DNA of 34,266 nucleotides from positions 1-34,266 of the forward strand of contig JANQGV010000053.1 in assembly GCA_028282925.1 (NCBI GenBank), given 5' to 3'. This stretch comes from Thermodesulfobacteriota bacterium. GTDB lineage: Bacteria; Desulfobacterota; WTBG01; CAIYCZ01; CAIRTM01. The notes under the pieces were generated by a model. It was not told the origin of the DNA. It did not search any database and worked only from the letters and a program-made list of their open reading frames with translations. Both the position numbers and the translations under genes were made by a program. Shown here in pieces: positions 10,021 through 19,793 of the stretch (the first letter of the stretch is position 1; the number at the start of each line of letters is the position of its first letter).

Positions 10021-10191
10021 TTATTCTTCTACAATCGCTTCGGTCGGGCACACATCGGTACACGTGCCGCATTCGGTACATTTATCCTTGTCGATCCGGT
10101 ACGTATTGTCACCTTCCTGAATTGCATCGGCAGGGCACTCTTCTGCACAGGTTCCACATGACACACACTCGTCGTTAATTGTATAGGCCAT
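10021..10191 (-). CDS. 2[4Fe-4S] ferredoxin
   Basis: This is a 56-residue electron carrier, too short for many gene callers. It has two complete cluster motifs: CVSCGTCAEECP near residues 9-20 and CTECGTCTDVCP near 38-49, each CxxCxxCxxxCP, as in clostridial-type bacterial ferredoxins. The start at 10191 (MAYTINDEC) has an excellent AAAGGAGGTGA ribosome binding site. It lies inside the rpsB-frr-uppS cluster, 34 bases after frr, which is not a usual place for it. A strong site and a following hairpin suggest high expression. It is a candidate electron donor for reductases elsewhere, but the sequence names no partner. Confidence 0.92.
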   Translation of the reverse strand: MAYTINDECVSCGTCAEECPADAIQEGDNTYRIDKDKCTECGTCTDVCPTEAIVEE

Positions 10192-15934: not shown

Positions 15935-16492
15935 TTACACGCTGCTTCGCGGCAACTCCTGAACCAGCTTGTCATCCTTCCACAGGCCGTGCTGCACCGT
16001 ACCGTCGGGCAGGGTAAACGTGCCGTGTCCGTGACGTTTACCCTCCTTGAATTCGCCCATGTACTGCGATCCGTCTGCAAAAAAGGCGATACCGTTGCCG
16101 GAGCGATGATTATCCCTGAAATCGCCTTCGTATTTTCTGCCGTCGTCAAAGGTGAGGGTCCCATGGCCGTGCCGCTTGCCGGACTTGAACTCACCGGCAT
16201 AGGTTGCATCGTCGATCCTGAAAGTTCCAAACCCTTCCAGGAGGTCGTCGCGCCATTCACCCTCACACCTGCCGTTTTCAAAGGTGAGCACACCACGCCC
16301 GTTGCGTTTATCATCTCGAAACTCTCCGGTGTGGGTGGTGCCGTCGGCAAACGTGAGAGTCCCCTGTCCGTGCTTTTTGCCGTTCCTGAATTCACCGGTA
16401 TACTGCACGTCACCATAATCGAGGGTTCCCCTCCCGTGGGGTTTCCCGTTTTGCAAATCACCGGTATAGTTTTTTTCACTTTTGGAAGTCAT
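15935..16492 (-). CDS. MORN-repeat protein
   Basis: The 185-residue protein is almost wholly made of MORN repeats of about 23 residues: seven full units of the form YxGEFxxGKxHGxGTLTFxDG and a partial eighth. No signal peptide or other domain is present. In other proteins MORN repeats bind phospholipids or act as rigid scaffolds; the role of stand-alone bacterial ones is mostly unknown. The start at 16492 (MTSKSEKNY) has AGGGGGT about 9 bases upstream. The frame is open further upstream, but that part would be translated hairpin sequence. It is divergent from the PilZ gene. Confidence 0.85.
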   Translation of the reverse strand: MTSKSEKNYTGDLQNGKPHGRGTLDYGDVQYTGEFRNGKKHGQGTLTFADGTTHTGEFRDDKRNGRGVLTFENGRCEGEWRDDLLEGFGTFRIDDATYAGEFKSGKRHGHGTLTFDDGRKYEGDFRDNHRSGNGIAFFADGSQYMGEFKEGKRHGHGTFTLPDGTVQHGLWKDDKLVQELPRSSV

Positions 16493-16510
16493 AGCCCAAC
16501 ACCCCCTATT

Positions 16511-16541
16511 TTGCCGCCTTGCGCTTTTCGCAAGGCGGCAA
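16511..16541. other. Perfect 13-bp hairpin between divergent genes
   Basis: TTGCCGCCTTGCG at 16511-16523 and CGCAAGGCGGCAA at 16529-16541 pair perfectly around the loop CTTTT. On the minus strand it lies just before the ribosome binding site of the MORN gene, so it would be in that gene's 5' leader. On the plus strand a T7 run begins 6 bases after it. It could be a leader structure, an insulating terminator or a protein-binding palindrome. Confidence 0.5.
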
Positions 16542-16627
16542 ACACTGTTTTTTTCAGCCTGCACTTGAGATCAAAGGCATAACATGGTACATTTTTAATC
16601 AAATACAACAACAGCATGTGAGGCCGT

Positions 16628-19109: not shown

Positions 19110-19793
19110 TTATCGTATAACTTCACGGAATATCCGATCAGCCCGGTCCTTACCGATAAACCGTCCCAGTTTGTTTCTCGAACCGTCTTTCTCACTTAAA
19201 TCATCGCAATAAACCGTGCCGGCATGTTCCACACGGGCGCGATAGTCCGGGTCGGTAATAGGCTCGGCAGCGTCAAGCATATCAAGATAACAGGAGAGGT
19301 AATCGGCGGCACACTGACGCGCTCCGTCAAGCAGGGCATTATCGGCCATGGCATAGACCGTATAATCGTTAATGTAGGGGTTCATCCACTCTTTTGGTTT
19401 CTTTGGGGGCTCAATAGTATATTGCTCACGGATAGGCTGCAGACGGGCGATATATTTTTCGTGGTAGTCGCTGTCGGCAAAAAGGGGAATGAAGTTCATA
19501 TAAATAAACGTTTTCTTCTTCATCCACGAGAAATCGATGGCCAGCAACGGTATATCGAAATCGGCCTCGGGGTATATTTCAATGGCAAATATCTCCAGTT
19601 TGGGTATTTTAATCGAGGTACGCATTACCGATATTTTACGAACCCTGTCCATGCGCCAGTTGTACATATTTAAAACCAGGGCTCCAAGGGGCAGCCGAAT
19701 TTCCCTGAGGTCGTCCGGTACGGGGGTTGAGGTGAGTGCATAGCGGTCTTTCAGGATAGAAAGCATTTCGCTCTTCAATTGTTCCATAGACAT
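19110..19793 (-). CDS. Ferredoxin-dependent bilin reductase-like protein
   Basis: The 227-residue protein matches the HY2/PcyA (FDBR) family in order and spacing as I remember PcyA. RxRKI leads into KLEIFAIEIYP at 65-75, IPLLAID at 81-87 aligns with the PcyA segment that carries the catalytic Asp105, and the C-terminal VYCDD, then KDGSRNKLGRFIGKDRADRI, aligns with the YC..NDKTRR..FG..WAERY region. FDBRs reduce biliverdin to phycobilins using ferredoxin. Asp87 fits Asp105, but Ala70 falls where PcyA has His88. No haem oxygenase or phytochrome gene is in the window. The start at 19793 has AAAGGAG 5 bases upstream, so expression looks good. A family without bilin chemistry remains possible. Confidence 0.68.
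   Translation of the reverse strand: MSMEQLKSEMLSILKDRYALTSTPVPDDLREIRLPLGALVLNMYNWRMDRVRKISVMRTSIKIPKLEIFAIEIYPEADFDIPLLAIDFSWMKKKTFIYMNFIPLFADSDYHEKYIARLQPIREQYTIEPPKKPKEWMNPYINDYTVYAMADNALLDGARQCAADYLSCYLDMLDAAEPITDPDYRARVEHAGTVYCDDLSEKDGSRNKLGRFIGKDRADRIFREVIR

Follow-up and report, generated by a model that had tools for sequence, protein, structure and literature searches.

The closest described systems to the gene considered here are the bilin reductases PebA, PebB, and HY2 (structures 2X9O, 6QX6, and 6KME) and PcyA (2D1E and 2G18), together with RCCR (3AGA). Rockwell, Martin, and Lagarias stated in 2023 that all known enzymes of the FDBR fold ultimately depend on oxygen, and they inferred that FDBRs originated after the onset of oxygenic photosynthesis (PMC10151467). 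FDBRs of heterotrophs, the pre-PcyAs, have already been published (PMC10151467): pre-2 and pre-3 keep the Asp corresponding to PcyA Asp105 and have Asn and Thr, respectively, at the position of PcyA His88, pre-1 lacks the Asp and the catalytic residues, and the gene clusters combine haem oxygenase, an Fe-S protein, a V4R pair, and a BBAG globin, or a B12-binding protein and a globin. Anaerobic reduction of linear tetrapyrroles exists in other systems, as in ChuY/HmuF (PMC10404700), whose activity is the one that we propose below; the flavodoxin fold of HmuF is unrelated to that of FDBRs, and flavodoxins accompany some of the FDBR paralogs described here.

The window, a stretch of 34,266 nucleotides from an uncultured deltaproteobacterial class, carries an FDBR-family gene with the following features.

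19110..19793, minus strand: FDBR-family gene (subfamily A), 227 aa, identified by PF05996, AlphaFold, Foldseek, and ortholog starts
19533..19535, minus strand: codon of Asp87, the predicted catalytic central Asp (PebA Asp84, GtPEBB Asp99, PcyA Asp105), by alignment and PMC6755814
19185..19187, minus strand: codon of Asp203, the predicted second FDBR Asp (PebA Asp205, GtPEBB Asp219), by alignment and PMC6755814
19584..19586, minus strand: codon of Ala70, at the PcyA His88 position in a gap-free alignment with PcyA
19197..19199, minus strand: codon of Leu199, at the GtPEBB Arg215 position, by alignment and PMC6755814
18155..18616, minus strand: split-barrel PNPOx-family flavin/F420-type protein (PF01243, E value 6.7e-8), same strand as the FDBR gene and about 490 bp downstream of it

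A first-pass annotation had assigned this gene to the PcyA/HY2 family on the motifs IEIYP...IPLLAID and YC...KDGSRNKLGRFIGKDRADR, both of which are present in the protein, and the profile and structure searches that it proposed bear the assignment out. PF05996 is the sole Pfam family matched (97.5 bits, E value 1.2e-27, cut-off 31). The AlphaFold model, built from 11 homologs (pLDDT 94.8, pTM 0.91), matched in a Foldseek search of the PDB, in this order, GtPEBB (TM 0.87-0.89), PebA (0.88), HY2 (0.91), PcyA (about 0.80-0.81), and RCCR (0.83), with E values reaching 7e-15 and a far weaker match to CPOX. From the PDB, a profile of subfamily A retrieved nothing but FDBRs (GtPEBB, 2.8e-21; PebA, 1.9e-13; PcyA, 1.7e-11; HY2, 1.2e-10). 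Judged by profile, modeled fold, and predicted catalytic pair, the window protein belongs among the FDBRs. Its 227-aa frame opens with the ATG at 19793 on the minus strand; a second ATG at 19787, giving 225 aa, is probably the true start, since orthologs align better to it. These orthologs, at 60-62% identity, occur in three other genomes, so the frame is neither a chance nor a spurious one; contamination is an unlikely origin for the contig, as its relatives carry such orthologs and the window has ordinary housekeeping genes.

The active site sets the protein apart from the described enzymes. The roles of the two Asp residues are taken from PMC6755814; Asp87 is invariant in A1, Asp203 is invariant in A1 and A2, and all 12 members of subfamily A keep the pair. 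As the first-pass annotation had read it, the catalytic Asp105 of PcyA is conserved (here as Asp87) and His88 is replaced by Ala; in the same gap-free alignment Arg58 replaces Glu76, and the PcyA catalytic set is therefore missing although the fold is shared. With PebA, PebB, and HY2 the window protein has in common the fold, PF05996, size, the C-terminal Asp, and the central Asp (Asn in tomato HY2), but identity is about 20%, and the best NCBIfam model, PebA (PRK13247), gives 83.4 bits against a cut-off of 263; none of the equivalog cut-offs of PebA, PebB, and PcyA is reached. Where PebA and PebB have Asn at the His88 position, the window protein has Ala, and where A-ring reducers (PebB/HY2) have Arg at the GtPEBB Arg215 position, PebA Ser, and PebS Met (PMC6755814), it has Leu199. 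Its host, unlike theirs, is apparently anaerobic, has no detected haem oxygenase, and holds about 17 paralogs. RCCR, despite the common fold, lies across a well-defined branch of the tree (97/96), and its family, PF06405, does not match the window protein.

The pre-PcyAs resemble the window protein in being FDBR-family members of a nonphotosynthetic bacterium and, in pre-2 and pre-3, in keeping Asp105. The first-pass annotation had suggested a relative of the kind described from heterotrophs as possibly ancestral to bilin synthesis; membership in the FDBR family holds by Pfam and fold, but assignment to the published type is not supported, as Ala combined with the Asp differs from the Asn or Thr of pre-2 and pre-3 and from the Asp-less pre-1. 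No V4R/BBAG cluster was recognized among the window genes inspected and the four neighbors scanned, and the absence of detected haem oxygenase and the large paralog expansion are further differences. This separation follows the published description of the pre-PcyAs, our tree having held no pre-PcyA sequences. By the sequence features tested, the protein is placed outside PcyA, PebA, PebB/HY2, RCCR, and the described pre-PcyA groups.

The gene belongs to an expanded family. PF05996 has 16 matches in the window's own genome, 14 of them above the cut-off, and an iterated profile adds two (one, L028:6349-7107, weak), giving about 17 FDBR paralogs with the window gene among them. FDBR-like genes occur in 13 of the 17 class genomes examined, its own included, with 6 to 14 in each of the 12 relatives; they are absent from class family f3 and from G004, which is of the window's own family, whereas the other class members have 6 or more. 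Among about 180 other members of the phylum they are absent, save one subthreshold match. A contig search with the single window protein found no relative, and an alignment-based search found five named metagenome-assembled genomes (MAGs), all within our set of relatives. MAGs with subfamily A orthologs are filed under Deltaproteobacteria or Thermodesulfobacteriota, one just as Proteobacteria; record names suggest that some were sampled in lakes, from a water cast and from sediment, and in a reservoir. The marginal RCCR (PF06405) matches, just two of them above the cut-off, proved to be divergent FDBR paralogs that cross-match the profile.

In trees of 104 and 75 sequences, at least twelve subfamilies can be told apart, and each occurs in several genomes; subfamily A comprises 12 proteins from nine genomes. 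The residue at the central Asp position is characteristic in most subfamilies (D, E, N, F/Y, or A/T), and the subfamilies are ancient lineages that differ from one another in their predicted active-site residues. The branch supported at 97/96 has RCCR and subfamilies E, F, and G on one side and the known FDBRs (PebA, PebS, PebB, HY2, and PcyA) and subfamilies A to D on the other; this rooting is tentative because the RCCR sequence is long and partial and pre-PcyA sequences were not included. AU tests did not reject a clade of the known enzymes alone (p 0.365), of these with A (0.355), or of these with A and B (0.593). The tests are thus compatible with more than one branching order among the known FDBRs and subfamilies A to D: the known FDBRs may or may not nest inside the anaerobe family, and the window protein may or may not be of a type ancestral to them.

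Small electron carriers are fused to, or encoded beside, sister paralogs. In subfamily E, two perfect CX2CX2CX3C motifs precede an FDBR domain that retains both Asp residues (six proteins in five genomes).

L023:2694-3674, minus strand: 2[4Fe-4S] ferredoxin::FDBR fusion in the window's own genome; others at L061, L085, L086, L094, and L099

The own-genome fusion exceeds the cut-offs of both PF05996 and PF06405; the model for subfamily E, of moderate confidence (pLDDT 72.5), matches HY2, PcyA, and RCCR and, in its N-terminal part, ferredoxin-like proteins. In G010 (L110) the same FDBR is unfused, and a gene for a 79-aa 2[4Fe-4S] ferredoxin lies immediately upstream. Such a ferredoxin is fused to or at most two genes away from 18 of 106 FDBR-like genes; among background genes this holds for 5 of 142 (odds ratio 5.6, p 6e-4; the genomes are related and thus not independent). 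In a conserved operon of four genomes (G003, G005, G009, and G013; L064, L072, L082, and L107), two paralogs flank one to three ferredoxins and a 135-aa protein, with a P-type ATPase in three of the four loci. Proteins of about 135 aa from a family without a Pfam match stand beside FDBR genes in five genomes (e.g., L030:5654-6061 and L064:4486-4896). Of 47 Flavodoxin_5 cases, 9 are no more than 1 kb from an FDBR, where 0.47 would be expected; the genomes are again not independent, and most of the cases show one conserved arrangement of a flavodoxin followed by a membrane-anchored FDBR (subfamily C). Six loci (L051, L052, L053, L055, L021, and L022) show, with parts varying by locus, a geranylgeranyl-reductase-like flavoprotein, Flavodoxin_5, and a membrane-anchored FDBR; at several of them, MMPL/RND and YCF48 genes adjoin.

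The window copy has no ferredoxin or flavodoxin neighbor. Within subfamily A, an FMN_red flavodoxin-like gene lies about 50 bp upstream of its orthologs in G006 and G008, and the second own-genome copy (L020) is one of a series of genes that includes FMN_red-like and geranylgeranyl-reductase-like flavoproteins. The PNPOx-family protein downstream is a possible partner of the window FDBR; its TIGR03618 match falls below the cut-off, and a different PNPOx-family gene adjoins the window-gene ortholog in L033. This neighbor was also considered as a HugZ-type haem oxygenase; it has no PDB relative at an E value of 0.1, and that reading therefore stays a lead.

The genomes give no known source for a bilin. 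Haem oxygenase of the PF01126 fold, other haem oxygenase folds being possible, is absent from the window's genome and 16 class relatives, in a search that detected controls such as Synechococcus; the PHY (phytochrome) domain is likewise absent from the window's genome. No HutW/ChuW was found there above its cut-off; among the HutW/ChuW-like matches obtained, L116 is HemW (above cut-off) and L117 is a coproporphyrinogen-III-oxidase-family protein (PRK08629). With PF01126 absent and the HutW-like matches being HemW or other HemN-family proteins, no known linear-tetrapyrrole source was found. COX1 is absent from every FDBR-bearing class genome and present in one FDBR-free member of f3, which suggests little oxygen use by the former; the FDBR-bearing lineage apparently lives anaerobically, and the COX1 result, bd-type oxidases aside, is consistent with this.

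Our results point to the window protein as probably an active low-potential reductase, FDBR-like in its action. We put the chances of a linear tetrapyrrole as its substrate at about even; this substrate is favored for subfamily A because the subfamily groups with bilin reductases. The leading reading, held with the same balanced confidence, is of an FDBR-type reductase, driven by ferredoxin or flavodoxin, that acts on an anaerobic linear tetrapyrrole. With no haem oxygenase, the tetrapyrrole would have to be scavenged or come from some undescribed way of opening the ring without oxygen. The conjugated substrate would bind in the alpha/beta/alpha pocket, a small low-potential carrier, presumably ferredoxin or flavodoxin, would supply electrons, and one double bond would be reduced in two single-electron, proton-coupled steps, with Asp87 protonating the substrate and Asp203 serving as the second proton-relay residue. 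With Leu199 rather than Arg, PebA-like reduction of C15=C16 would be the foremost candidate activity. The ferredoxin fusions and flavodoxin linkage of the paralogs lend indirect support to ferredoxin-dependent bilin reduction.

The location of paralogs beside hydrocarbon-type transporters makes a non-tetrapyrrole substrate a serious rival, one that we regard as possible but doubtful: the family, window copy included, would retain FDBR chemistry as low-potential ene- or arene-type reductases of hydrophobic cyclic compounds (terpenoid, steroid-like, or aromatic). Several paralogs adjoin MMPL/RND, YCF48/BNR, DUF1329, and DUF1302 genes, resembling the AmeABCD cassette (MMPL, YCF48, DUF1329, and DUF1302 type) that transports apolar monoterpenes in Castellaniella (PMC6394551) and a similar "Nanopod" cluster in a benzene degrader (PMC13101534). 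Other paralogs adjoin OYE, SDR, AFOR, and GlcD/HdrD-like genes; the absence of haem oxygenase and the differences in active-site residues among subfamilies would also fit. However, such neighbors belong mostly to other subfamilies and not to subfamily A, which groups with the known bilin reductases. YCF48 genes occur also in class members without FDBRs; the cassette is therefore not FDBR specific and is weakened as an indicator of substrate. In addition, a B12 radical SAM gene lies near paired paralogs in three of the four genomes with the paralog-ferredoxin operon (best NCBIfam model BchE, well under its cut-off), which hints at tetrapyrroles.

An FDBR fold without catalysis, acting as a binding or carrier protein (a tetrapyrrole or flavin sink or a regulatory subunit), appears improbable. 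In 18 cases two FDBR paralogs lie close together on the same strand, recalling the PebA-PebB pair, and several paralogs lack the central Asp (with N, F, Y, A, or R instead) and are often paired, as an inactive partner might be; the window copy, however, has both catalytic Asp residues, invariant in its subfamily, and sister paralogs are fused to ferredoxins. Least likely is an ordinary pre-PcyA-like biliverdin reductase of a heterotroph with a divergent haem oxygenase invisible to the Pfam model: pre-PcyAs are active FDBRs in heterotrophs, haem oxygenases may escape sequence detection (PMC10151467), and a PNPOx-family gene lies 490 bp downstream, but that neighbor lacks a PDB relative, the His88 position holds Ala rather than Asn or Thr, no V4R or globin gene was recognized beside the window FDBR, and FDBR-bearing genomes lack COX1.

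The presence of many FDBR genes in apparent anaerobes with no detected haem oxygenase either contradicts the generalization that the fold depends on oxygen or indicates that the fold performs other chemistry. In anaerobes, FDBRs seem to lead a second existence that has so far gone unexplored. Tentatively, FDBRs may extend beyond oxygen-dependent haem breakdown as an old radiation of an anaerobic class, self-sufficient fusions included, that would act without haem oxygenase on anaerobic tetrapyrroles or other conjugated compounds, with PebA, PebB, HY2, and PcyA as one branch within it. The ferredoxin::FDBR fusions may serve as self-sufficient bilin or ene reductases; our literature search found no published fusion of this kind, which does not prove absence, and no earlier report of apparent anaerobes that combine many FDBR copies with a lack of haem oxygenase. 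Two uncharacterized FDBR-related metagenomic clades are mentioned in a 2026 paper (PMC13193486), and part of the family may thus already appear in trees.

Elsewhere in the window, no photosynthesis-like gene was recognized among the gene calls, in keeping with the first-pass annotation. The ferredoxin that it noted some 9 kb away, without a link to the FDBR gene, is a 56-aa protein encoded at 10021-10191 on the minus strand between frr-like and uppS-like genes, and no link is evident. Near the FDBR gene, at 15935-16564 on the minus strand, lies a gene for a MORN-like repeat protein (GxGxLTFxDG).
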